Assembly: GCA_022819855.1 (NCBI GenBank)
Contig: JAJEGN010000016.1
Span: forward strand, 46,941 to 110,940
Source: Gammaproteobacteria bacterium
GTDB lineage: Bacteria > Pseudomonadota > Gammaproteobacteria > Steroidobacterales > Rariloculaceae
DNA: 64,000 nucleotides
Reading direction: 5' to 3'
How positions within the stretch are numbered: the stretch's first letter is position 1; each line of letters begins with the position of its first letter. The position numbers were made by a program, and so were the translations under genes. Positions 12,148-41,240 of this stretch are shown piece by piece. A model generated the notes under the pieces. The model saw nothing but the letters and a program-made list of their open reading frames with translations, did no database searches and was not told the DNA's origin.

Positions 12148-14295
12148 ATGAGCATAGCTTTGGAACTCGACGGCGCCAGGCTAGCGGACATACCGCTGCA
12201 GGCCGCGTCGCTCGACATCTGGGATACCAAATACCGACTCAAGACACGGAGCGGCGAGCCGGTGGACCAGTCGATGGATTCGACCTGGGAGCGCGTGGCG
12301 ACGGCGCTCGCCGAGGTCGAGGACGAGGACAGGAAAGCGCACTGGTACGAGCGTTTCCTATGGGCGTTGCGGCAGGGCGCGATCCCGGCCGGCCGGATCA
12401 TGTCGAACGCGGGCGCGGGCCTCCACAAACCCGCGACGTCGACGATCAACTGCACGGTCTCCGGCACCATCAACGACTCGATGCACGACATTCTCGACAA
12501 GGTCCACGAAGCCGGGCTCACGCTCAAGGCCGGCTGCGGCATCGGTTACGAATTCTCGACGCTGCGCCCGCGCGGGGCGTACGTCTCCGGCGCCGGGGCG
12601 CACACCTCAGGTCCCCTGTCGTTCATGGACATCTACGACAAGATGTGTTTCACCGTGTCGTCGGCCGGCGGGCGCCGGGGCGCGCAGATGGGAACGTTCG
12701 ATGTCGGCCATCCCGATGCCATGGACTTCATTCGCGCCAAGCGCGAGAACGGCCGCCTGAGGCAGTTCAACCTGTCATTGCTCATTACCGATGAGTTCAT
12801 GCAGGCCGTCAGGGAAGATCGACCCTGGCAACTCGCATTTCCCGTGACGCGCCGCGAAGTCGAGGAAGACGAGCTCGATCTCGACGATTCGGAGCAGATC
12901 GTCTGGCGCGAATGGCCGATCGATGCCGACTACGTCACGAACGGCCGCGGTCTCGTCGCCGCCAGGGTGTATCGCACGGTGCCGGCGCGGCGGATGTGGG
13001 ACGTCATCATGTCGTCGACCTACGATTTCGCCGAACCCGGCTTCGTGCTCATCGATCGCGTCAACGAGATGAACAACAACTGGTGGTGCGAGAACATTCG
13101 CGCGACCAATCCCTGCGGCGAACAGCCGCTGCCGGCTTACGGGGCCTGCCTGCTCGGTTCGATCAATCTCACCAAGTTCGTGCACGAGCCGTTTACGGAC
13201 CGGGCGCGTTTCGACTGGGATCTGTACCGCGAGGTCGTGAAGATCTTCACGCGGATGCTCGACAACGTCGTTGAGGTCAACGGCCTGCCCCTGGAAACGC
13301 AGCGCGAGGAGATTCTGCGCAAGCGGCGCCACGGCATGGGCTTCCTCGGCCTCGGTTCGACCGTGACGCTGCTCGGCATGCGTTACGGCTCCGCGGATTC
13401 GGTGGCGTTCACGGAGAAGGTGGCGCGCGAGCTGGCGCTGGCCGGCTGGGAGACGGGCCTCGAGCTTGCGAAAGAAAAGGGCGCCGCGCCGATTCTGCTC
13501 GAAGACTTCGAGGTCACCGAGGACATGTTGCGGCGCAGGCCGGAAATGGCCGCCGACGGCTGGAATGTCGGCGACCGCATACCGGGACGCGTCCTGCACG
13601 CGCGCTACAGCCGCTACATGCAGCGCGTGGCAGAGAGTGCTCCGGAACTCGTGGCGCAGCTCGAGAAGACGGGCGCGCGGTTCACGCATCACAGCTCGAT
13701 CGCCCCGACCGGCACGATATCCCTGTCGCTCGGCAACAATGCGAGCAACGGCATCGAGCCTTCGTTCGCGCACCACTATTTTCGCAACGTGATTCGCGAG
13801 GGCAGGAAGACCAAGGAGAAGATCGACGTCTTCTCGTTCGAGCTGCTTGCGTACCGGGATCTGGTCAATCCGAAGGCACTGCCGGGGTCGAGCGAGGCGG
13901 GCGAACGCCTGCCCGACTATTTCGTGAGTTCCGAGGATGTCCTGCCGAAGGAGCACGTGGACATCCAGGCGGCGGCCCAGAAGTGGATCGATTCGTCGAT
14001 ATCCAAGACCGCCAATGTGCCGACCGACTACGCCTACGACGAGTTCAAGGATATCTACCTGTACGCCCATGAACAGGGGCTCAAGGGTTGCACGACCTTC
14101 CGGTTCAACCCCGAAGCGTTCCAGGGCGTGCTGGTCAAGGAGAAGGATCTGAAGGCCACGACCTACCGGTTCACGCTGGAGGACGGTTCGGTCGTCGAGG
14201 CGAAAGGCGACGAGGAAGTCGAATACGACGGCGAGATCCACACGGCCGCGAATCTCTTCGATGCACTCAAGGAAGGCTACTACGGCAAGTTTTGA
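12148..14295 (+). CDS. nrdJa: Adenosylcobalamin-dependent ribonucleoside-diphosphate reductase, catalytic part (NrdJa)
   Basis: NAGAGLHKPATSTINCTVSGTI, NPCGEQPLPAYGACLLGSINL, SSIAPTGTISLSLGNNASNGIEPSF. Confidence 0.95.
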   Translation: MSIALELDGARLADIPLQAASLDIWDTKYRLKTRSGEPVDQSMDSTWERVATALAEVEDEDRKAHWYERFLWALRQGAIPAGRIMSNAGAGLHKPATSTINCTVSGTINDSMHDILDKVHEAGLTLKAGCGIGYEFSTLRPRGAYVSGAGAHTSGPLSFMDIYDKMCFTVSSAGGRRGAQMGTFDVGHPDAMDFIRAKRENGRLRQFNLSLLITDEFMQAVREDRPWQLAFPVTRREVEEDELDLDDSEQIVWREWPIDADYVTNGRGLVAARVYRTVPARRMWDVIMSSTYDFAEPGFVLIDRVNEMNNNWWCENIRATNPCGEQPLPAYGACLLGSINLTKFVHEPFTDRARFDWDLYREVVKIFTRMLDNVVEVNGLPLETQREEILRKRRHGMGFLGLGSTVTLLGMRYGSADSVAFTEKVARELALAGWETGLELAKEKGAAPILLEDFEVTEDMLRRRPEMAADGWNVGDRIPGRVLHARYSRYMQRVAESAPELVAQLEKTGARFTHHSSIAPTGTISLSLGNNASNGIEPSFAHHYFRNVIREGRKTKEKIDVFSFELLAYRDLVNPKALPGSSEAGERLPDYFVSSEDVLPKEHVDIQAAAQKWIDSSISKTANVPTDYAYDEFKDIYLYAHEQGLKGCTTFRFNPEAFQGVLVKEKDLKATTYRFTLEDGSVVEAKGDEEVEYDGEIHTAANLFDALKEGYYGKF

Positions 14296-28195: not shown

Positions 28196-28250
28196 CATCA
28201 TAATCCCGGAAAATCCGCAATTGAATAGCGGATTTTCAAGGATTATGATG
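28196..28250. repeat. Large imperfect palindrome abutting the start of the AAA+ ATPase gene
   Basis: CATCATAATCC (28196-28206) / GGATTATGATG (28240-28250) and AAAATCCGC (28210-28218) / GCGGATTTT (28228-28236), 9-nt loop. Confidence 0.85.
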
Positions 28251-29404
28251 TGCAAGTGATCGAGCGGCCAACAGCTATCGCGCGAATCGACGCCGCGCTC
28301 GGGGTTCATCCAGCCGTTGCCCTGGTGGGTCCCCGGCAATGCGGCAAGACGACCCTGTCGCGCATGTTCGCGGCAAATCGGGCGAAGGTTACTTTCTTCG
28401 ACCTGGAACGGGAGGTTGACCGGCGCCGGCTCGAATCTCCGGAACAAACACTGTCAGCCTTGCGCGGGCTGGTGGTCATCGACGAGATACAGAGAGACCC
28501 GCGGCTGTTCGAGGTGCTACGCGTACTACTGGACCGACCCGTATCCGACGCGAAGTACCTGTTGCTCGGCAGCGCTTCGCCCGACCTTCTCAAGAACACC
28601 TCGGAAACGCTGGCCGGACGGGTGGGCGTCGTTGATCTGGCCGGCTTCGACCTGAGCGAAGCGCATGGCGCGGACTGGCGCAAGCTATGGGAGCGCGGTA
28701 GCTTTCCGCGCAGTTTCCTTGCGAAGGATCCCGCCGCCTCGGCCCTTTGGCGAGAGAATTTCATTCGAACCTTTCTGGAGCGGGACGTTCCGCAGTTGGG
28801 CATCGGCATACCCGCGGAGTCGCTGCGGCGGTTCTGGACCATGGTCGCCCATTACCACGGACAGGTCTGGAATGCTGCGGAATTCGCCCGTGCCCTCGGC
28901 GCGGCGGAGGGCACCGCACGCAGGTATCTGGACATCCTGCAGGGCGCCTACATGGTGCGGGCGCTCACGCCCTGGCAAGAGAACATCCGCAAAAGGCAGG
29001 TCAAGTCACCCAAAATCTACGTGCGCGACAGCGGTCTGCTGCATGCGCTGCTGGAGCTGGACAGCTTTCACGCCATCGCGGGGCACCCCAAGTTGGGCGC
29101 TTCCTTCGAGGGCTTCGTGATCGAACAGCTTCTCGGACAACTCGATACCCGGTCCGGCAGCTTCTGGGCCACCCACGGGGGCGCCGAACTCGACCTGCTG
29201 GTGCACCGCTCCGGGAGACGATACGGCTTCGAATGCAAATACAGCGACGCACCGCGAACCACGCGCGCCATGCACATCGCCGTGGAGACTCTGGGTCTCG
29301 AACACTTGTGGGTGGTGTACCCCGGCTCGGAGTCCTACCGTCTGACCGAGCGCATATCGGTCGTTCCCGCCGGTCGACTGCCGGAACACGTGCTGAGTCG
29401 GTGA
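28250..29404 (+). CDS. ATP-binding protein, AAA+ / DUF4143 family
   Basis: GPRQCGKTTLSRMF Walker A, LVVIDEIQRDPRLFEVLRVLLDR, KIYVRDSGLLHALLEL, GFVIEQLL, GAELDLLVHRSGRRYGFECK. Confidence 0.9.
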   Translation: MQVIERPTAIARIDAALGVHPAVALVGPRQCGKTTLSRMFAANRAKVTFFDLEREVDRRRLESPEQTLSALRGLVVIDEIQRDPRLFEVLRVLLDRPVSDAKYLLLGSASPDLLKNTSETLAGRVGVVDLAGFDLSEAHGADWRKLWERGSFPRSFLAKDPAASALWRENFIRTFLERDVPQLGIGIPAESLRRFWTMVAHYHGQVWNAAEFARALGAAEGTARRYLDILQGAYMVRALTPWQENIRKRQVKSPKIYVRDSGLLHALLELDSFHAIAGHPKLGASFEGFVIEQLLGQLDTRSGSFWATHGGAELDLLVHRSGRRYGFECKYSDAPRTTRAMHIAVETLGLEHLWVVYPGSESYRLTERISVVPAGRLPEHVLSR

Positions 29405-29806: not shown

Positions 29807-30583
29807 TCAGCTTCCGACCCACTCGACGGCAGTGTCGATCCCGCCATCCGGATCGAGCCTGAACCAGCGCATGCCGGGCGGCCGATCGTCGAGCGCAAAG
29901 AACGCCCTGTTTGGCCGAAACTGCATGCAGGTCGACGGCGTGCTCAGCAGGCGGATCTGGCCGCGCAGGCGGTCGGAAGCCTGATGCACGTGACCCCAGA
30001 CCACGCAGCGCACATTGGCGTGTGCGTCAACGACTTCGAAGAACTCGTCGCCGTCCTCGACGCGGCCGCCGTCGAGCCATGCACTTCCCATCGGGATCGG
30101 GTGATGGTGCATGCAGATCATGACGTGCCGGCCGGCCTCCTTACGTAACGTGGCGTCAAGTGAAAGCAAACGGCGTTCACCAAACCGGCCTCCTTCCTTG
30201 CCCGCTATGGTCGTATCGAGCAAAACGAACGACCAGCCGCCGATCCTGACGTCGCCACCTACAGTGAACGGTTCGGCGTCGAGCACTTCCACCGTCACCT
30301 CCGGATCGTCGTGATTGCCGGGAACGCAAAGCACAGGCACATCGAAACCCCCGAGCATCGATCTGAATTGCTCGTAAGCCGCACGACCGTCGTCATGGAC
30401 GATATCCCCGGTCGCGACTATCGCGTCGGGCGGCCAGTGCGGACCTCCCTGTGCGTGGTCCAGCACAGCGGCCAACGTGCGTGCGGTATCGATCCCGCGC
30501 AGCCGCGCTTCGGGATTGGCACTGAGGTGCGTGTCGGTGATTTGCAGCACCGTCAGCGGCCGGGATTGTCGACTATTCGCCAT
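29807..30583 (-). CDS. cpdA: 3',5'-cyclic-AMP phosphodiesterase (calcineurin-like)
   Basis: LQITDTHLSANPEARLRGIDTARTLAAVL, ATGDIVHDD, VPGNHDD, HHHPIPMGSAWLDG, WGHVHQ. Confidence 0.9.
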   Translation of the reverse strand: MANSRQSRPLTVLQITDTHLSANPEARLRGIDTARTLAAVLDHAQGGPHWPPDAIVATGDIVHDDGRAAYEQFRSMLGGFDVPVLCVPGNHDDPEVTVEVLDAEPFTVGGDVRIGGWSFVLLDTTIAGKEGGRFGERRLLSLDATLRKEAGRHVMICMHHHPIPMGSAWLDGGRVEDGDEFFEVVDAHANVRCVVWGHVHQASDRLRGQIRLLSTPSTCMQFRPNRAFFALDDRPPGMRWFRLDPDGGIDTAVEWVGS

Positions 30584-30822
30584 CGGACCTGCGGCGGTTC
30601 GAGTGTTCGTCGCGATGATACGCGACGCTCGCGTGCCAGCCTTCGACCGGAAGACGTGCGGTCAGTCTTTTCCAGACACCGGTAGCTTCCCCGTAGTGAA
30701 ACGCCGCTGGTCGTACGAGGGCAGCCCTCTTCCAGACGCTGACGCTTCCCCTCTCAGTTTCACATCGCGCGAACACTCAGTTTCGATCGCTGCTTGGGCC
30801 CAAGCCGCTCGTGAACACACCG

Positions 30823-30828
30823 TATAAT
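30823..30828 (+). promoter_or_regulatory. Putative -10 box of the HNH gene
   Basis: TATAAT followed by CG-rich discriminator, only 7 bp before the GTG start. Confidence 0.4.
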
Positions 30829-30835
30829 TCCGCGC

Positions 30836-31801
30836 GTGCCGCCATATGACACATCCTCAGGAAACCACGATCCCGATTGGGCAATCAGATCGGAAGCGTT
30901 CGCTGCGGTAGAGCGTCTGGTGTTGTCCTACGGCGGGCGAATTCCATGGGCTGCGATCAATCGCGGGTTTCAATTCCGCGGCGAACAGGTTCATTTGGCC
31001 GGCAGGGCTTCCGGGATATTCAGACCGCGGCAGATGTCCGCGGCGCTCAGCATCAAGACCACGAAGCCGCGCGACGGGCGCCGCACATGGTACCGGGATC
31101 AGAATGCGGGCATCGAGGTTGATGCCGCCACGGGCCTTTTGCCATACGATCTGGTTCGCGATCCCCGCCATCCCACTTACGACTCGTTGCGGCGCGCATA
31201 CGAGAGAAGGGCGCCTTTGATCTACTTCCGGGCCGTGGAGTCTGCCGTGTATGAAGCCATTTGGCCGGTTCGGGTCGCGGACTTCAGTGCGAACGAAGGG
31301 CGCGTGCTGCTCGCCGCGCCGGATCATCGTCGCAATGATGTGAGTTCGGCCGAAGCGACCGACGTTGCGGTGCACGCGAATGTCCGGGAGCGATCCTACT
31401 CGCTACGGCTCACGAGGCAACGCAATCACCAAGACTGGTTCAGCAGCCGCGTCAGGGCCGTCTACGGCTATCGCTGTGCGTTCAGCCGACTGCCGTTGGG
31501 GAGGTTGCTCGTCGGCGCGCATATCAAATCGGACGACGCCGGTGGTCCTGCATCGATCCCCAATGGAATCTGCATGTCGGCGCTCCACCATGCTGCATTC
31601 GACTCCTACCTGATCGGCGTGGATCCCGATCTGAAAGTCCACGTGTCGCCCAGCGTTTTCGACGCCGACGACGGACCGCTCTTGGCGAACCTGCAAGATC
31701 TCGACGGAACCCGTTTGCGCGTACCCGATGAACCGTTCGCGAGGCCAGACCGCGAATTTCTGGAATGGCGCTTTGCTCGGTTCGAGAAGTCTCGAACGTA
31801 A
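30836..31801 (+). CDS. Predicted HNH restriction-type endonuclease (COG3440-like) with unassigned N-terminal region
   Basis: C-terminal YGYRCAFSRLPLGRLLVGAHIKSDDAGGPASIPNGICMSALHHAAFDSYLIGV matches HNH_2-type pattern; 321 aa. Confidence 0.8.
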   Translation: MPPYDTSSGNHDPDWAIRSEAFAAVERLVLSYGGRIPWAAINRGFQFRGEQVHLAGRASGIFRPRQMSAALSIKTTKPRDGRRTWYRDQNAGIEVDAATGLLPYDLVRDPRHPTYDSLRRAYERRAPLIYFRAVESAVYEAIWPVRVADFSANEGRVLLAAPDHRRNDVSSAEATDVAVHANVRERSYSLRLTRQRNHQDWFSSRVRAVYGYRCAFSRLPLGRLLVGAHIKSDDAGGPASIPNGICMSALHHAAFDSYLIGVDPDLKVHVSPSVFDADDGPLLANLQDLDGTRLRVPDEPFARPDREFLEWRFARFEKSRT

Positions 31802-32079
31802 ACGCGTGTAGGGACCGGCCCGATTCATGAGACAAGGTGGCCCGATGGGCACCTCTCTGGCACTGAATCTGGCTGGCATTCCTCATGCCCATTACATGCC
31901 AACGGGCATGCAATTGAGCGTTCAATGAAAGCATTCTGGAAGCGCAGTACGGCAAATGCAGTCGTATCGCGGACGACTCATGGTGGGAGCGGAGGGGACA
32001 CGTCTCAATCGCCTACCCGACGAATTCGTCGCCCAACTGCACCGCTAGATCCGTCCGCCAACGCTTGCCTTGGTCATAG

Positions 32080-32622
32080 CTATTGCTCGACCCAGTCGGC
32101 AAGGAGGGGAAATTCAACCTCCGACCCGTTCTGATCAATCAGTGCTGATGGCCCACCAATCAATCCCCATTTGCACAAGTGCAGGCCTTCCGGAAGGGAA
32201 AATCGTGAGAGAAGGAACGGTACATCCTGAGTCCACATTCGGCGCTCGGACAAGCCCGGATCAACTACGATTAGGACATCCTGAAAACGTGTCGTTTGAG
32301 TCCAGCCGATCAGGCACTCGCTGAAACCTTGTTGGTTTGCCCACTTGAGCGCCGACTGTCCCAGCGTGCAGTCGCGTTGGCAACGGGCGAGCCTTGCAGT
32401 CAATTGAGCAATCACGCCAGAATTCTCGCGGCAGACCAGCGAAATGATTTCGCGCACATCGACGGGCATCGAGTCTACGACGTACGCCTCGATACAGGCT
32501 TGTTCAATCTGGACTTGATCGGACTCTGTTTGCGAGTACGAATCGGACACCGATAACAGAGCCCAGATTGGAAGGACTAGCCTGAGAACGACCAAGGTAT
32601 TGGTCCTAGCTGCCGATGTCAT
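32080..32622 (-). CDS. Hypothetical Cys-containing protein with possible signal peptide
   Basis: 180-aa ORF, hydrophobic N-terminus, GAGG upstream of ATG, no better overlapping ORF. Confidence 0.45.
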   Translation of the reverse strand: MTSAARTNTLVVLRLVLPIWALLSVSDSYSQTESDQVQIEQACIEAYVVDSMPVDVREIISLVCRENSGVIAQLTARLARCQRDCTLGQSALKWANQQGFSECLIGWTQTTRFQDVLIVVDPGLSERRMWTQDVPFLLSRFSLPEGLHLCKWGLIGGPSALIDQNGSEVEFPLLADWVEQ

Positions 32623-33117
32623 CGCAGTTTTGCCTCATTCTTAGATTAACGGAAGAACTCGATTTACAAGTCTTTGTGCCGAAATGGTCAGAGCATGTCA
32701 ATCGCCCAGTTCGCGAATCTCGATTCGCTGTAGTTTCGCGAAAAAAAGGCGGGCAGGATCGGGTTTGCGGAGGCTTCAAAGCCCGGTAGTGTCTACGGAA
32801 ACGGGGGACGATCATCCCCTCCGGTTCCATGCCGACCAAACTCGTATTGAATTCATCGAGTCCATAGGCACAGTGACGCGCGGGCCTCCCTGTTCGCCGT
32901 CCAGGTCATCGGCCGCTGGCTAATCGCGTCCGGGCGCGAGCAAGATGTCCGGGAAACCCGCGAATTCATCTCCATCGGCGTGCCCGACCCGGACGCTCAC
33001 ACTGCATAGCCAAGTTGCGATTGGCACAGTAACCGGCCCGCCGCCACGTCCTTCTTTACCTGCATCCTCCCGATTACCCGGTTACCATTCGCCGCGACTT
33101 CACCGGAGGAATTTCTT

Positions 33118-36100
33118 ATGATCGCAGGAGCGCGTCGCCTTCCAGTCCAGCACGTCTCGATCCGCGTGCCGTGGCACGATGCAGGATGGGCCGGAACCGT
33201 CTGTAACAGGCCCGCCGTCAATATGGCTTGTCGCGTGTTGCCCAGAATCTCAGAGAGCAAGGACGACGTGGCCGAGGAGTGCATTGCCGGACAATCCTTC
33301 TCGGATTTGTCACAGGCCCAGCTTCCTCCGTGCATCTCCGAGCGAGCCAATTTTATGGCGCCGTTCCCCGTCACGCTCAACAAGCGACACCCCTACGTCG
33401 AACGCAATTCGGAATCGCATGGCCACTTCCGTCCGACGCCGTTCACGATGCGTCCTTACAGTGCTGCCTGCGTGCCCTATCGCTGGATGCTGGTCGAAGA
33501 GAGTGCCGAGTTCATCGAACGCTACGATCTCGGGTTCCAGCCCGACCGCGAGCCTGACCTCGGATTCCCTACCGCCTGGATTCAGGACCGCTCGAACCAA
33601 CTCGTCATGCTTGACACATTCTTCGGTGCCATCCGGCCCGAGGAATCGCTTTGCTTCTTCTACGCGAAGGACACGCCCCTATCGGCATCCGCGAGACGCG
33701 TCATCGTCGGCGTGGGCCTGGTGAGAGAAGTCGACGAGCACGTCGAATACCAGTACGCGACTAAGAATCCTCCCCACCGCAGCGTTATCTGGGAACGCAA
33801 CGTCGAGCACTCCGTTCGACCGGGCTTTGCGGACGGGTTCCTCTTCCCCTATCGCGAGTTGTCCGACCTTGCTCTGGAGAAGGGAATGGACCCCGAACAT
33901 TTCCTCGCGGTCGCTCCGGACGACGCGTTCTGGAGCTTCTCCTATGGCTCGGAACACGTATCGCACGACGAAGCCATCGCATCGATCCTGAGCTGCCTGC
34001 GCGCTCTGAGGCGAATTCAGGCGGTGCTTCCTGGGCCGTGGGAGCAGGTTTCAGCATGGCTCGACCAGCAACTCAACCGTTTATGGCGCCTGCGCGGGCC
34101 CTTCCCCGGTTTCGGATCCGCGCTGACAGCGTTCCTCGGCGACCGTGGGAACCTCATCGCGTACGAAATCGCCGGGCAAGACGCGCAGGGAAGCGTTGAC
34201 GGCAACATCGATCCATGGCCGGCGTTCGAACGGATCATCCAAGCTCCCGGCACCGCATCCGGAATCATCAAGGATCACATTGGAGAAGGCTTCGCCCGGG
34301 CCTGGGAAGCCATGACCGAGGAACGAAAGGAATTACTGAAGCTGCTCAGCCGGTATTCCTTAAGCTCCGATCAGGTGAAACGGTTCTTCAATCCCGACTA
34401 CAGGCCAGAGAACCTAGACGATGCTTCACTAATCGAGAACCCGTACCTGCTCTATGAGCTCGACCGAGCATCGGTTGACGCCATCTCGGTGACCACCATC
34501 GACCGCGGAATGCTGCCCGGCAGCGCGGTGCTGAAGGAGCATCCTTTGCCCGACCGTACGCGTCTCACGGACAAGGTCGACCCACGTCGCGCACGCGCAC
34601 TTGTGGTCGCTGCGCTTGAGCAGGGCGCCGAGCAGGGGCACACGCTGCTGCCGCGCGCGTTGCTGTCAACGTTCATCGGCAACATGCCGCTCGAAACCGA
34701 TTGTCCGATGGGGCCGGAGGTTCTCGCCGGCATTGGCGACCTGCTGCAAGGCGTCGTTGAGCCGGTCGAGATTTCGGGTGAGCCACTTGCCTATCAGCTT
34801 CAGCGCTTCGTCGACACGGCCGACCTTGTCCGCCGCACCGTACGTAAGCGCCTAGGTCCGAGGAGCCAACGCCATCGCGGCGATCATGATTTTCCCGCCA
34901 TCGTGAACCGTTCTCTTGGCGACCTTCCCCAAGACAGCGACGATGCGGATATCGAGATTCAAGCCCGTCGCGAGAAGGCCGCTGCACTCGAAGAGGTGTT
35001 CGCCTCGCGGCTTTCGGTGCTCATCGGCGCCGCCGGTACGGGAAAGACGACGCTACTGAAGATGCTCTGCGATCTGGATGATGTCGCCGCCGGCGGTGTA
35101 TTGCTCCTGGCGCCCACCGGCAAGGCCCGCGTCCAGCTCGAAACCAGGACCGGGATGTCCGGCGGACTCACGATCGCACAGTTCCTGATGCGCCATGGCG
35201 ACCGCTACGATACGGAGACCGGTAGATACGTCGTCACGCGCAGTCCCGATCGCTGTCGCGACTACAGGACCGTGATCGTCGACGAATGTTCCATGCTTAC
35301 CGAAGAGCAGCTCGCTGCCCTGTTCGACGCTTTGAGCGGTGTCGATCGTTTGGTCCTCGTGGGCGATCCACGCCAGCTTCCTCCGATAGGGAGCGGCCGG
35401 CCGTTTGTCGATATCGTGCGTGAGCTTGAACCCGACGAAATCGAACACCGGTTTCCGCGGGTCGGCCGCGGCTACGCCGAGCTCACCGTGCCTCGTCGCC
35501 AGCGGGGCGCGACCCGCGCGGATCTGGTGCTCGCGAGCTGGTTCGGGGGCAACCCCGACCCCGCTGCGGATGAGATCTGGAATCGCCTCGACACGGAGGA
35601 GATGGACGAAATCCGCTTCGAGTCCTGGACCGACGACGAGAATCTGAAGGCAAAACTGCTGGACCTAATTGTGACGGAGCTCAACCTCGACGGTCCGGAT
35701 GACGAAGTCGGTTTCGAATGCAGTCTGGGCGCCACGACATACAACGGCGGAACCTTCTTCTGGCGCAGCCGCGATCCCAAAGCCCCACTCAAGGCGGAGA
35801 AGTGGCAAATTCTCTCGCCCGTACGCGGGGCGGAACATGGTGTCGCCGTGCTGAACCGGGTCGTCCAGCAGTCGTTCCGCAAGACGTGGCTATCGCGAGC
35901 GACTTCGCGTTACCGCAAAATCCATCGGCCGGTCGGCCCTCAGGGGATCATCTATGGCGACAAGGTCATCAACCTCAGGAACAGCAGCGTTCGCGACGTT
36001 TACCCCGAGCGGCCGTCCTATGTCGCCAACGGTGATGTCGGCATCGTCGTGGGCAACTACAAGAGGAGGAATCAAAAGAAGCTGTTTCCACTCGTGGAGG

Positions 36101-36855
36101 TCGAGTTCACGTCCCAACCCGGCCACGACTACGACTTCAAGCTTCGGGAGTTCGACGGGGAAGACGGATCTCCGCCGCTCGAGCTCGCGTACGCTCTGAC
36201 GGTCCACAAGTCGCAGGGCAGTGAGTTCGGGATCACCTTCGTGGTCCTGCCTGATCCGTGCTGGCCGCTCTCCCGCGAGCTTCTGTACACAGCCCTGACG
36301 CGGCAGCAGGAACGCGTCATCGTTCTCCATCAGGGCGACTTGCGAAACCTGCGCCGATACGCGAGCGACAAGCACTCGGACATTGCACGCAGGCTGACCA
36401 ATCTCTTCACACCTCCCAATCCGATCGCCTTCGACGTCGATGGCACCGAGACGTTTCTAGAGGAAGGACTCATCCATCGCACAAAGCGCGGCGATCTCGT
36501 CCGCTCCAAGTCGGAGGTCATCATCGCCAACGAACTCCTTGCCCAGGGTCTGGACCGCTATGAGTACGAGGCCCCGCTGGCCCTGCCCGACGGAAGGACG
36601 CGATACCCGGACTTCACAGTCGTCGATGACGACACCGGCGAGCGCTACTACTGGGAGCACCTCGGGTTGCTCCACAATCCCGACTACGCGGCCCGTTGGG
36701 CCCGAAAACTGCATGCCTATCGCGAAGCCGGCATCCTCCCGCATGACGAAGGTGGCGGCGAGGCGGGTACGCTGATCGTCACGCGCGACGACGAACATGG
36801 TGGGATCGATACCCAGGCGATTGCCGAGTTGATCCGCGATGTCTTAGCCGCGTAG
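33118..36855 (+). CDS. RecD-like SF1B helicase with C-terminal PD-(D/E)XK-type nuclease domain and uncharacterised N-terminus
   Basis: GGAGGAATTTCTT-ATG RBS; GAAGTGKTTLLKML, VDECSMLTEEQL, GDPRQLPPIGSGRPFVDI, LAYALTVHKSQGSEF, LLYTALTR; C-terminus RSKSEVIIANELL...YPDFTVVDDDTGERYYWEHLG. Confidence 0.85.
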   Translation: MIAGARRLPVQHVSIRVPWHDAGWAGTVCNRPAVNMACRVLPRISESKDDVAEECIAGQSFSDLSQAQLPPCISERANFMAPFPVTLNKRHPYVERNSESHGHFRPTPFTMRPYSAACVPYRWMLVEESAEFIERYDLGFQPDREPDLGFPTAWIQDRSNQLVMLDTFFGAIRPEESLCFFYAKDTPLSASARRVIVGVGLVREVDEHVEYQYATKNPPHRSVIWERNVEHSVRPGFADGFLFPYRELSDLALEKGMDPEHFLAVAPDDAFWSFSYGSEHVSHDEAIASILSCLRALRRIQAVLPGPWEQVSAWLDQQLNRLWRLRGPFPGFGSALTAFLGDRGNLIAYEIAGQDAQGSVDGNIDPWPAFERIIQAPGTASGIIKDHIGEGFARAWEAMTEERKELLKLLSRYSLSSDQVKRFFNPDYRPENLDDASLIENPYLLYELDRASVDAISVTTIDRGMLPGSAVLKEHPLPDRTRLTDKVDPRRARALVVAALEQGAEQGHTLLPRALLSTFIGNMPLETDCPMGPEVLAGIGDLLQGVVEPVEISGEPLAYQLQRFVDTADLVRRTVRKRLGPRSQRHRGDHDFPAIVNRSLGDLPQDSDDADIEIQARREKAAALEEVFASRLSVLIGAAGTGKTTLLKMLCDLDDVAAGGVLLLAPTGKARVQLETRTGMSGGLTIAQFLMRHGDRYDTETGRYVVTRSPDRCRDYRTVIVDECSMLTEEQLAALFDALSGVDRLVLVGDPRQLPPIGSGRPFVDIVRELEPDEIEHRFPRVGRGYAELTVPRRQRGATRADLVLASWFGGNPDPAADEIWNRLDTEEMDEIRFESWTDDENLKAKLLDLIVTELNLDGPDDEVGFECSLGATTYNGGTFFWRSRDPKAPLKAEKWQILSPVRGAEHGVAVLNRVVQQSFRKTWLSRATSRYRKIHRPVGPQGIIYGDKVINLRNSSVRDVYPERPSYVANGDVGIVVGNYKRRNQKKLFPLVEVEFTSQPGHDYDFKLREFDGEDGSPPLELAYALTVHKSQGSEFGITFVVLPDPCWPLSRELLYTALTRQQERVIVLHQGDLRNLRRYASDKHSDIARRLTNLFTPPNPIAFDVDGTETFLEEGLIHRTKRGDLVRSKSEVIIANELLAQGLDRYEYEAPLALPDGRTRYPDFTVVDDDTGERYYWEHLGLLHNPDYAARWARKLHAYREAGILPHDEGGGEAGTLIVTRDDEHGGIDTQAIAELIRDVLAA

Positions 36856-37243
36856 CCCGGGAAAGCGGGCGAACGTCCGCGACAGATATCGACTCCCAAG
36901 ATGACACCGCCCGCTACGGACGCTAGCCAGTTATCGACCGCCTTAACCATTTCCCGATATGTCTCCGGCGGATGTCAAACCCTCTCCACGTTGCGCCGTG
37001 GCCCCAGGTAATGATGCAGAGTTCTGCTGATCGACATCGAGGCCTTTGTCCGCCGCTCGACGGTGATCGCGCCACCCGGCTATTCTTGTGGTCGGCGGGG
37101 ATGGTCTGGACAGCTTCCCCGACCCGGGCGAGAAGCTTTCCTCCTTTCAACCCCGCCTTCCCGATCGAGCAACCGTGCATTCGCTCCAGATGCTATAGAC
37201 CATGCCGACAGGACTCGCCTATGGACCGCAAACGGAAACACCG

Positions 37244-37822
37244 ATGACGCAGGATCCGCTCCAGAAGGAGTTCATCAAGCTGCGCGATCAGGCGATCTGG
37301 CTGCGACAGACGGTCAACACGTTCAACCATCTGTTCGATTCCGGTCCCGAAACTGAACGGATTCTGAGGGAATCGGCCGACCTGTTCTTTACCGACCTCA
37401 ACACGATGATGCAGGAATACGCCGTTCTTCTGGTCTGCCGTTTGACCGGACCCGCCGAGTCGTTCGGCAAGGTCAACCTCTCGACCCAGCGCTTCACTAA
37501 ATTGATGCGGAAAAGCGGTTGCCTCACACCTGAAATCGAGCGTCTCGACGCAAGGCTCACGGCCTACGGAAAACTCCTGAAGCCAGCGCGGAACAAGATC
37601 ATCGCCCACAGCGACTTGGAGGTCCATGTCGATGACATCGCCCTTGGTGCCCACGGCGAAGAGGTTACGGTGGAGTTCTTGAAAGACCTGCAAGCGTATT
37701 TCGACGCTGCCGGCAACGCCGTCGGCGTCGGGTCATTGGATTTTCGGCACGCACCCGGGCCCGGCGACGTCATCGACTTGGTCAGGAAGCTGGAGAGGGC
37801 GAACGACTCGGCGCGAAAGTGA
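37244..37822 (+). CDS. HEPN/AbiU2-like protein (ORF open from 37202)
   Basis: Helical protein with LKPARNKIIAHSDLEV, an R-x5-H HEPN-type motif in AbiU2-like context. Confidence 0.6.
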   Translation: MTQDPLQKEFIKLRDQAIWLRQTVNTFNHLFDSGPETERILRESADLFFTDLNTMMQEYAVLLVCRLTGPAESFGKVNLSTQRFTKLMRKSGCLTPEIERLDARLTAYGKLLKPARNKIIAHSDLEVHVDDIALGAHGEEVTVEFLKDLQAYFDAAGNAVGVGSLDFRHAPGPGDVIDLVRKLERANDSARK

Positions 37823-38029
37823 TTTCGGCGCCACCCGCTACCGGACTTTTCCCGATTTGAATGCAGAAACGCGCGAGGTTGCGTCCACACACCGCTGTAC
37901 GATGGTGATCTCCACGGTGACATCGAACGAAGTGCGCTTGGCTTGCGACTGGTCCGCAGCAAATGCCTTGGCGTTCGTTGATGAGTCGGGTACTTGGCTA
38001 CGCTGTGATCGACAATTGGTAGCAGGCGG

Positions 38030-38311
38030 TCAGATCTGAACGTCGCGTCCCGGCAGGAGATCTCGAGTGTCGCCAAACAACGCATCGGGATCGAGCTTGA
38101 GATCCGACAGGTCGGTGACTTGCGCAAACTGGACATAGGCCTCCGCGAAGCTCCGCCGCCCCGCGGTAAACTGCTCGTACTGTCGCCTCCCTACGAGCAC
38201 GGCAACCGGTGTGCCTCGCCGGGTCAGCGTCACCGCCATGCCATTCTCCGCTTCCCGAACCAGCGTTGGCAGGTTCCGGCGCGCCTCGGCTATGGAAAGC
38301 GTATCGGTCAT
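38030..38311 (-). CDS. Phd/YefM-family antitoxin, no recognisable adjacent toxin
   Basis: MTDTLSIAEARRNLPTLVREAENGMAVTLTRRGTPVAVLVGRRQYEQF. Confidence 0.85.
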   Translation of the reverse strand: MTDTLSIAEARRNLPTLVREAENGMAVTLTRRGTPVAVLVGRRQYEQFTAGRRSFAEAYVQFAQVTDLSDLKLDPDALFGDTRDLLPGRDVQI

Positions 38312-38332
38312 GAATCGACTCTGAATTCTGAG

Positions 38333-38350
38333 TGTACAGACCAATGTACA
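38333..38350 (-). promoter_or_regulatory. Putative YefM-type operator (two TGTACA palindromes)
   Basis: TGTACA at 38333-38338 and 38345-38350, 12 bp centre-to-centre, just upstream of the antitoxin start. Confidence 0.6.
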
Positions 38351-38726
38351 TCGTAGTCAGTGTTCTGCGTCCTGTCGACGAGCCTTGCTCCGAGTGAGTC
38401 ATGCCGGAATTGCTTCCTGAAACGCGGGCGTGCGGCGGGCAGTGTGCTCGTATGACGCCGCTGATGTTGCGAAGGCGCAGCGCCTCGCCGCGCCGTCGAC
38501 TTCGGGGCCGCGGCAGCGGCAGCGGTAGTGTAGTGATTGCGCGGCCCGTCCTCGGTAAGCGAAAATTGCGGCGTCACTCCTTGGGCTCGCCGCGCGACGA
38601 TGCAGTGGTGCTGGCATTTCGGTAAGCGGTTGGGCTTCAGGAGTTCCGTTTCCTCCGTGGAAGTCGCCGGTGAGGCGGGCGGCATACAAGTACAGGCCCA
38701 GCCATTTCACTTGACGAGAAACCATA

Positions 38727-39131
38727 ATGCACAGACTCGCCGTCGCCCTGACCGGATGCTGCGTGGCTTTCGCGGTACTTGCTCAAACGGACCAGGCCCC
38801 AAGTGAGCTGAACGACAACCAGTTGGACGCCGCCGTGGTCTTCGCGGAAAGAGACCGGGACCGCGCCCTGGAACGCTACCGTGAGAAGCTGGCGAGCCCG
38901 ACGTTTTCCGCCGGGCTCGGCAGCGTCGTCGTTCAGAGTGTGCCGACGCCGCTGAATCGGGAACTCCTGGACGGCTTCAGTGACAGCGACAGGGAAGAGT
39001 TGGAGCAATTGTACGAAGCCTGGGAAGACGCGGCGAACAGGCTGCAGGCTCTGCGCGGCGAGATTCGAATGCGCTGTCAAGCCGAAAACGGTAATCCGCG
39101 CCTTGCCCGACTATGCGGCAGGCTGAATTGA
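38727..39131 (+). CDS. Hypothetical secreted protein
   Basis: Signal peptide MHRLAVALTGCCVAFAVLAQ; soluble charged helical remainder. Confidence 0.6.
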   Translation: MHRLAVALTGCCVAFAVLAQTDQAPSELNDNQLDAAVVFAERDRDRALERYREKLASPTFSAGLGSVVVQSVPTPLNRELLDGFSDSDREELEQLYEAWEDAANRLQALRGEIRMRCQAENGNPRLARLCGRLN

Positions 39132-39144
39132 CGGGAGTACAATA

Positions 39145-39210
39145 ATGAACAGAATTATCCTGTTTACGGCCTTGGCCTCGCTGTTTCACACCAAGAACAC
39201 TTCGTCCTGA
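39145..39210 (+). CDS. 21-aa leader-peptide-like ORF overlapping the tkt start
   Basis: [21 protein letters not shown], stop TGA overlaps the tkt ATG (TGATG). Confidence 0.35.
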
Positions 39211-41240
39211 TGTCATCGAATCCAGAGGCACGGCCGGCGCGCGCGGAACTGTCCAGACGCCGGCTGGCAGACGCCATTCGTGTGCTCTCCATGGACGCCG
39301 TACAGCGCGCCAATTCGGGCCATCCAGGCATGCCGATGGGGATGGCGGACATCGCCGAAGTGCTCTGGAACGACTATCTGCAGTTCAGCCCGACCGAGCC
39401 CACGTGGTGGGACCGCGACCGCTTCGTGCTCTCGAACGGCCACGGATCGATGCTGCTGTACTCGATCGCCTGGCTGACCGGGTACGCGATCGATATCGAG
39501 GAACTCAAGGCCTTTCGCCAATTGGGCTCGCGGACGGCCGGACATCCCGAGTACGAAACGGACATCGGCATCGAGACGACGACCGGCCCGCTCGGCCAGG
39601 GTGTCGCCAACGCCGTCGGGATGGCGCTTGCAGAGAAAATCCTGGCCGCGACGTTCAACCGTCCGGGCCACGAGATCGTCGACCATTACACCTATGTATT
39701 CGTCGGCGACGGCTGCCTCATGGAAGGGATTTCCCACGAGGTGTGTTCGCTGGCCGGCACGCTCGGTCTCGGCAAGCTCATCGCTTTCTACGACGACAAT
39801 GGCATTTCGATCGACGGGCAGGTTGAGGGCTGGTTTACCGACGACACGGCCGCGCGTTTTCGCGCTTACGGCTGGCACGTGATCGGCGATGTCGACGGCC
39901 ACGATCCCGCTGCGGTCGCTGCGGCCATCGATGAGGCGCGAGCCGACGCCGGGCGGCCGTCGCTGATCTGCTGCCGAACGATCATCGGCTGGGGCGCGCC
40001 AAACAAGCAGGGCACGGCATCGACGCACGGCGAAGCGCTCGGCGAGGACGAAGTCGCCGCGACTCGCGAGCAACTCGGTTGGGATTACCCGCCGTTCGTC
40101 GTGCCCGACGAGATCAGGTCCACTTGGGACGCACGCGAACGCGGACGGGCTCTCGTGGCCGACTGGCAGCGGCGAATGGCGGCCTATCGCGAGGCGCATC
40201 CGGAACTCGCGGCACAGTTCGAGCGCCGCATGAGTGCGCAGTTGCCGGATGATTGGCAGACGGCCGCGGACGAAATCGTGCGCACCGTAGCCGGCGAAGC
40301 CAGGGCTATGGCAACCCGCAAGGGCTCCCATCGCGCGCTCGAAGGCTACGCGCCGCTGTTGCCCGAACTCGTTGGCGGTTCGGCCGATCTCACGGGCTCC
40401 AACAACACCTGGCACTCGGGCTCGCGCCGTATCGACGGCGACGACTCGGGCAACTACGTCCACTTCGGCGTGCGCGAGTTCGGCATGGCGGCCGCCATGA
40501 ACGGGATGTCGCTGCATGGCGGCTTCGTCCCGTACCACGGGACCTTTCTCGTCTTTTCCGACTACGCCCGCAACGCGCTGCGCATGGCGGCCCTGATGGG
40601 CGTCCAGAGCATCGGCGTCTTTACGCACGACTCGATCGGGCTCGGCGAGGACGGGCCGACGCACCAGCCGGTCGAGCACATCGCGAGCTTGCGGGCGATG
40701 CCCAACATGCATGTCTGGCGACCCTGCGATGCGGTTGAAACCGCCGCGGCCTGGCGTGCGGCGATCGAGCGTCGCACGGGTCCGACGAGTCTCGTGCTGA
40801 CGCGCCAGGGCCTGCCGCATGTCGAGCGCAGCGACGAGCAGATCGGGCTCATGGCGCGCGGCGCCTACGTGCTTCGCGACTGCGAGGACGAGGCCGCGCT
40901 CGTTCTCATCGCCACGGGCTCGGAGGTCGCGCTCGCGCTCGGCGCAGCCGCAGAACTCGAGGCCGGCGGCGTGCCCGTACGAGTCGTGTCGATGCCCTGC
41001 ATGGAGGTCTTCGACGAGCAGCCGGAAGATTACCGACGCGAGGTGCTGCCGGCTTCCGGCGTGCGGCTTGCGGTCGAGGCGGGCGTCGCCGATAGCTGGT
41101 GGCGATACCTTGCCGGTCGGGGGGACGTGATCGCCATGAACCAGTTCGGACAATCGGCTCCGGCCGCGGACCTGTTCGCACATTACGGTTTTACCGTGGC
41201 AGCCGTCGTCGACTCCGCGAAACGCTTGATGTCGTCGTAG
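39210..41240 (+). CDS. tkt: Transketolase
   Basis: [69 protein letters not shown]. Confidence 0.97.

Follow-up and report, generated by a model that had tools for sequence, protein, structure and literature searches.

Candidate antiphage genes termed phage defence candidates (PDCs) have been proposed by "guilt-by-embedding", and validation is still pending for most of those in the authors' core set, in work on archaeal defence (PMC12988326). For HEPN proteins, fusions to SF1 helicases and to REase domains have been listed together with AbiU2 genes in restriction-modification (R-M) operons, and AbiU2 has been tabulated beside Sel1-repeat or R-M operon genes (PMC3710099); because of these listings, the general idea of a HEPN protein combined with a helicase-nuclease is already known. 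Here, we analyzed a stretch of 64,000 nucleotides from a Gammaproteobacteria bacterium (JAJEGN010000016.1, positions 46,941 to 110,940; hereafter the window), which lies on contig C15 of a 3.73-Mb genome and carries a gene for a 1245-residue helicase-nuclease of the PDC-S68 family, followed on the same strand by an AbiU2-type HEPN gene. The helicase-nuclease is likely a DNA-targeting enzyme of the PDC-S68 type that works alone or beside restriction systems, with the HEPN gene as independent cargo of the same genomic island. The parts of the two genes are as follows.

33118..36855, plus strand: whole gene of the PDC-S68 family helicase-nuclease, 1245 amino acids (PADLOC PDLC05065)
33118..34152, plus strand: N-terminal region of the helicase-nuclease, residues 1-345, with conserved R16-x2-W19-H-D21...G26...N35
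34315..34647, plus strand: RecD2-like helix-hairpin-helix (HHH) region, about residues 400-510
34957..36417, plus strand: SF1B RecD-type helicase core, about residues 614-1100 (AAA_30, 2.4e-27; UvrD_C_2, 2.6e-13)
36460..36852, plus strand: predicted C-terminal PD-(D/E)XK nuclease domain with E1133, D1165 (PDF), E1180 (WEHLG), K1197, and Y1201
37244..37822, plus strand: AbiU2-type HEPN protein, 192 amino acids (PF18734), with R116-x5-H122 at 37589-37609

The large protein matched the PADLOC-DB 2.0 profile PDLC05065 (PDC-S68) over its full length, with 1524.5 bits and E=0, residues 9-1243 being aligned to profile positions 4-1219 of 1221. A preliminary description of this locus had proposed an undescribed defence module, and this claim of novelty falls because the family is already catalogued. 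The protein consists of four parts, namely, the conserved N-terminal region, the RecD2-like HHH region, the SF1B helicase, and the C-terminal nuclease domain. Its gene starts with ATG preceded by GGAGGAA, a good ribosome-binding site, and is an intact open reading frame (ORF) of 1245 codons in which every predicted catalytic residue is kept. The length of 1245 amino acids, together with homologues of equal length over many bacterial phyla and archaea, indicates that the ORF is real and did not arise by chance.

Full-length homologues were gathered from plasmids and from 80 genome contigs, and they came from many bacterial phyla and from archaea. In their tree, most phyla did not form single groups and were interleaved, which is compatible with lateral spread without proving it. 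None of the 58 relatives examined carried the gene, and the matches found there were partial and to other RecD-type helicases. The closest homologue (L055) was 65% identical. Viral contigs scanned with the single helicase-nuclease protein contained no relative, and the best match in the viral library, a megavirus RecD2-HHH protein, merely echoed the HHH region. Broken homologues were observed in Rhizobium leguminosarum (L012:7743-13690, with a large insertion) and at L007:8321-11736 and L087:10405-13700 (with frame breaks), and L055 is also among the broken copies. Such copies point to turnover of the gene.

The helicase core contains a Walker A motif (GAAGTGKT), DE, QLPPIG, VHKSQGSEF, and YTALTR. 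Among 71 homologues, K643, D722-E723, and T1058 were present in all and R1062 in 70, so that Walker A, DE, and motifs III, V, and VI place the protein in SF1B; the complete SF1B motif set in a 1245-residue ORF, as read in the preliminary description, was thus borne out. The RecD2 equivalog model TIGR01448 gave an E-value of 4.7e-54, but its score of 183.7 bits is below the cutoff of 500 bits. The HHH region was located near residues 400-510 by weak matches to the Pfam HHH_RecD2 family in 27 of 66 homologues, the best being 8.1e-5. Foldseek aligned the N-terminal model to RecD2 (3gpl) with a probability of 0.96, yet the TM-score was 0.17. A separate RecD2-like ORF of 745 amino acids is present on contig C4 of the same genome, which suggests that the window copy is not the housekeeping RecD.

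The C-terminal domain is predicted to adopt a PD-(D/E)XK nuclease fold. The last 154 residues were modelled by AlphaFold with a mean predicted local distance difference test (pLDDT) score of 91.2, and the top matches of this model to the PDB in Foldseek were nearly all PD-(D/E)XK proteins, including R2 endonuclease domains, Bax1, Can2, DrdV, BamHI, RecU, and bunyavirus endonucleases. The probabilities reached 0.97, with E-values only from 5e-3 upward; support for the fold therefore comes from the consistency of the list and not from one strong match. The alpha/beta core and the acidic E..PD..E arrangement of the superfamily were both found: the segment R1129-SKSE ... PDF ... WEHLG is present and conserved, with E1133 in 70, D1165 in 70, and E1180 in 69 of 70 homologues. 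A lysine at the canonical ExK place was not found, as position 1182 is L in 47 and C in 22 of the 70 sequences. In the next predicted helix, K1197 is kept in 67 of 69 homologues and probably replaces the ExK lysine as the catalytic lysine. The homologues L006 and L069 matched the PADLOC PD-DEXK model at about 1e-4 to 3e-4. A PDB sequence search with the nuclease profile returned no homologue, and the large protein had no Vsr or HEPN family match in Pfam or PADLOC. From the conservation, AlphaFold, and Foldseek results together, both the proposed fusion of a RecD-like helicase to a PD-(D/E)XK nuclease and the assignment of the PDFTV...YYWEHLG segment to a variant of that fold hold.

The N-terminal region has many invariant columns in an alignment of 66 sequences (A5), and the N-terminal 612 residues were modelled with a pLDDT of 93. 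No Pfam family matched this region over its gathering score, a PDB sequence search with its profile found no homologue, and Foldseek against the PDB gave nothing confident (best E, 0.25). Two weak Foldseek matches, 2hd9 (probability 0.20) and 2p5d (probability 0.16), are too weak to use. We take both structures to be EVE/PUA-like, and they might hint at a modified-base sensor; no EVE or PUA domain was found in a Pfam scan of the 66 homologues.

To describe the surroundings of the family, 859 neighbouring ORFs were clustered, and the clusters were named from annotated members, from PADLOC and Pfam scans of the pooled neighbours, and by inspection. Of the 79 homologous loci flanked by 3 kb or more, 48 had a restriction- or DISARM-type family within 9 kb, a count given without a matched random-gene control. 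The families included SNF2-type helicases (24 loci), HsdM-like proteins (16), HsdS (11), HsdR (7), and DrmA-like proteins (5), among others, and no single partner was universal. Thus, members of the family occur in or beside known defence systems; near the window gene itself are only an HNH nuclease, the AbiU2 HEPN gene, and a Phd antitoxin gene. In two loci, L048 and L086, PDC-S68 formed part of an R-M operon of type I. These copies (L048:5879-20634 from Pedobacter and L086:576-18155 from a Chitinophagaceae metagenome-assembled genome) come from distant tree branches and occupy the same operon place, in the order HsdM-like, HsdS, PDC-S68, a sacsin-like ATPase protein of 2300 amino acids, and HsdR-like, with genes overlapping or near-touching. 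In two further loci, PDC-S68 was followed by a gene for a NUDIX-type hydrolase and then by a PLD-ResIII-DUF3427 helicase (L006:12560-15795) or an SRA-NOV_C protein (L037:13813-15458).

The downstream protein belongs to HEPN_AbiU2 (PF18734), with E=2.9e-14 and 53.4 bits against a gathering score of 26.8 bits, and the arginine and histidine of its RNKIIAH motif (R116 and H122) were invariant in six relatives. The same-strand AbiU2-like ORF with an R-x5-H motif was therefore correctly recognized before. Similarity to relatives sets in at residue 16-18, which makes ATG 37244 the likely start; the earlier choice of 37202 would place it 14 codons too far upstream. Only 2 of 398 other genomes from the phylum contained a close relative of this protein; no match was found in plasmids, and a PDB sequence search found no homologue.

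Whether the two genes form a module was judged mainly from their co-occurrence. When all ORFs of 90 PDC-S68 loci were searched by phmmer with the HEPN protein, the query itself was the sole match. The AbiU2 profile matched three of 49 whole PDC-S68 genomes, in no case at the PDC-S68 locus: two matches were on contigs that differ in length from the PDC-S68 contigs, and the third, in L118, was rejected as a neighbour of the PDC-S68 gene of L021, no sequence being shared with that locus. The closest homologue, L055, had no AbiU2 gene, and a search for HEPN-motif proteins near the homologues gave no convincing AbiU2-like case. Three AbiU2 relatives with enough flank were solo among housekeeping genes, with no helicase-nuclease near. 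Lack of conserved co-occurrence, which the preliminary description had named as evidence against its module, was thus found for AbiU2 (0/90 loci and 0/49 genomes), and the two-gene module is not supported. The gap, given there as about 390 bp, is 388 bp from the helicase stop to the corrected ATG 37244. A scan of 32600-38400 yielded two terminator-like sites and, on the minus strand, a single promoter-like site at 38378-38350; none lies between the two genes and none was above shuffled expectation, so that these sites speak neither for nor against co-transcription.

Two distant PDC-S68 homologues, from a plasmid of Chondrinema (Bacteroidota; L006:7980-12461) and from the archaeon Methanoflexus (L069:1147-5835), carry C-terminal extensions. 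Beyond the nuclease, these run for about 240-280 amino acids, with RNKAAH in the first and RNKKAH in the second, and they may be fused HEPN domains. When the extensions were shuffled, an RNKxAH-type motif arose in 0.3% and 1.1% of cases, respectively; it was present in 8 of the 859 neighbouring ORFs. Pfam detected HEPN_Swt1 only at E=0.014 in L006 and nothing in L069, and no standalone relatives of either extension were found in plasmids.

Both genes are in a horizontally acquired island, which has the following features.

30602..39182: accessory island of 8.6 kb between cpdA and transketolase, GC 0.604
29807-30583, minus strand: cpdA, left flank of the island
39210-41240, plus strand: transketolase (tkt), right flank of the island
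30836..31801, plus strand: HNH endonuclease (PF13391, 7.7e-8), with a homologue in genome G002
38030..38344, minus strand: orphan Phd/YefM antitoxin (PF02604, 1.2e-11)

The GC of the flanks is 0.658 and 0.679. The same-genus genome G001 lacks 30602-39182; about 190 bp separate the counterparts of window positions 30601 and 39183 there, and the flanks align at about 97% (tkt) and 89-95% (cpdA). Genome G002 carries the HNH gene together with a Phd-PIN pair, and 31805-38026 is replaced there by other DNA. The helicase and HEPN genes thus lie in one differing segment, from which the PIN toxin is missing as well. In G002 (L115), the Phd gene is within 12995-13627 and the PIN-like gene, recognized by sequence inspection, is at 13631-14041; the PIN-like partner is missing from the window. 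Pairing of the Phd antitoxin with the HEPN protein was rejected, since Phd adjoins a PIN-like toxin in G002. The C-terminus of the HNH endonuclease matched NF045808, a model of phosphorothioated-DNA restriction endonucleases, at 2.3e-17, below its cutoff. A repeat near 38540 was considered as a dispersed element and rejected because it is not dispersed. Just outside the island, an AAA_14/DUF4143 ATPase gene at 28250-29404 (plus strand) matched the PADLOC candidate PDC-S01 at 2.6e-81.

The preferred reading rests on the domain make-up, the conserved active sites, the island nature of the locus, and the lack of conserved linkage. The SF1B helicase would translocate on invading DNA, the large N-terminal region may recognize DNA or link the enzyme with systems of the restriction type, and cleavage of the DNA would fall to the C-terminal domain, the enzyme acting alone or beside other restriction systems. 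The HEPN gene would serve independently in defence or abortive infection, probably through an RNase. DNA as the target, the direction of movement, the antiphage role, and the RNase activity of the HEPN protein are what we infer from these features, and a defence role for both genes, as proposed earlier, is probable. Several points weigh against this reading. The defence-island association of PDC-S68 is an uncontrolled count, and our literature search found no paper naming PDC-S68. With L or C in place of the ExK lysine in 69 of 70 homologues, catalysis would hinge on the proposed substitution by K1197. The HEPN-like extensions of two homologues hint that a HEPN effector can couple to this enzyme.

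A two-component module, with sensing or processing of invading DNA by the helicase-nuclease and the HEPN protein acting as RNase effector, is unlikely. The genes lie close together on one strand with no terminator-like site found between them, share the segment that differs from G002, and have the fused RNKAAH and RNKKAH motifs as a parallel, rare in shuffles and neighbours. The absence of AbiU2 from the other PDC-S68 loci examined, including that of L055, the solo AbiU2 relatives, and the poor Pfam evidence for HEPN in the extensions argue against it. We consider it similarly doubtful that PDC-S68 recruits interchangeable HEPN RNases, by C-terminal fusion in Chondrinema and Methanoflexus and in trans here, for DNA degradation followed by RNA-based shutdown as two stages. 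The HHH region and the helicase, and the 31 of 79 loci with no restriction-type neighbour family within 9 kb, would fit a RecD2-like repair or recombination helicase with a nuclease domain; such a role outside defence is nevertheless improbable, given the second RecD2-like ORF on C4, the score far under the RecD2 cutoff, the patchy distribution with absence from near relatives, interleaved phyla, and presence on plasmids, and the homologues beside R-M or DISARM genes. An orphan Phd antitoxin in the vicinity and broken copies in L007, L012, L055, and L087 could point to a degenerate or inactive island remnant, which is very improbable for a gene with an intact reading frame, all catalytic residues, and a good ribosome-binding site.

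The window provides a PDC-S68 gene that is intact and well delimited, in a family of defence candidates still untested. It also offers a concrete hypothesis of catalysis by E1133, D1165, E1180, and K1197 and a predicted N-terminal structure that has no confident PDB parallel. The clear negative result on the HEPN partnership spares the effort of cloning both genes as a presumed operon. Should PDC-S68 prove active, it would represent single-gene defence by a RecD-type helicase-nuclease across bacteria and archaea.

Compared with known systems, the window protein has the domain order and length of PDC-S68, a single-gene candidate, and no feature analyzed here distinguishes this copy from it; the family as a whole is a candidate from computation, with no validated mechanism in the papers searched. 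DISARM, ARMADA, and the DUF499 "BR" systems also have helicase-nuclease effectors in defence loci, and PDC-S68 is often beside DISARM-type genes; however, their helicases are of the YprA or BrxHII type, "RecD" is absent from the text of both papers, and the window gene has no adjoining methyltransferase or DrmB-like partner (PMC12458937, PMC12839542). HEPN/SF1-helicase/Vsr fusions of the MTES_1575 type also combine HEPN, an SF1 helicase, and a PD-(D/E)XK-type nuclease, but they do so within a single chain that includes wHTH domains and a Vsr nuclease, whereas the two genes here are unlinked and the helicase is of the RecD type (PMC3710099). The HEPN protein matches the abortive infection family HEPN_AbiU2 over most of its length and keeps R-x5-H; unlike the tabulated AbiU2 genes, its gene is not beside Sel1-repeat or R-M operon genes, and only the HNH gene lies 5.4 kb away (PMC3710099). 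The nuclease domain shares its predicted fold and the E...PD-x14-E arrangement with the R2 retrotransposon, Bax1, and Can2 nucleases, and it differs in lacking the ExK lysine, with K1197 of the following helix proposed instead, and in having no PDB sequence match. The MTES_1575-type fusion is presumably the Hhe defence system, whose joining of HEPN, SF1 helicase, and a nuclease of the Vsr type in a single protein is not seen in the two separate ORFs described here. With RecD2 and related SF1B helicases (TIGR01448), the window protein shares an HHH-like region and the SF1B core; it falls below the RecD2 cutoff and adds an N-terminal region of ~345 amino acids and a C-terminal nuclease.

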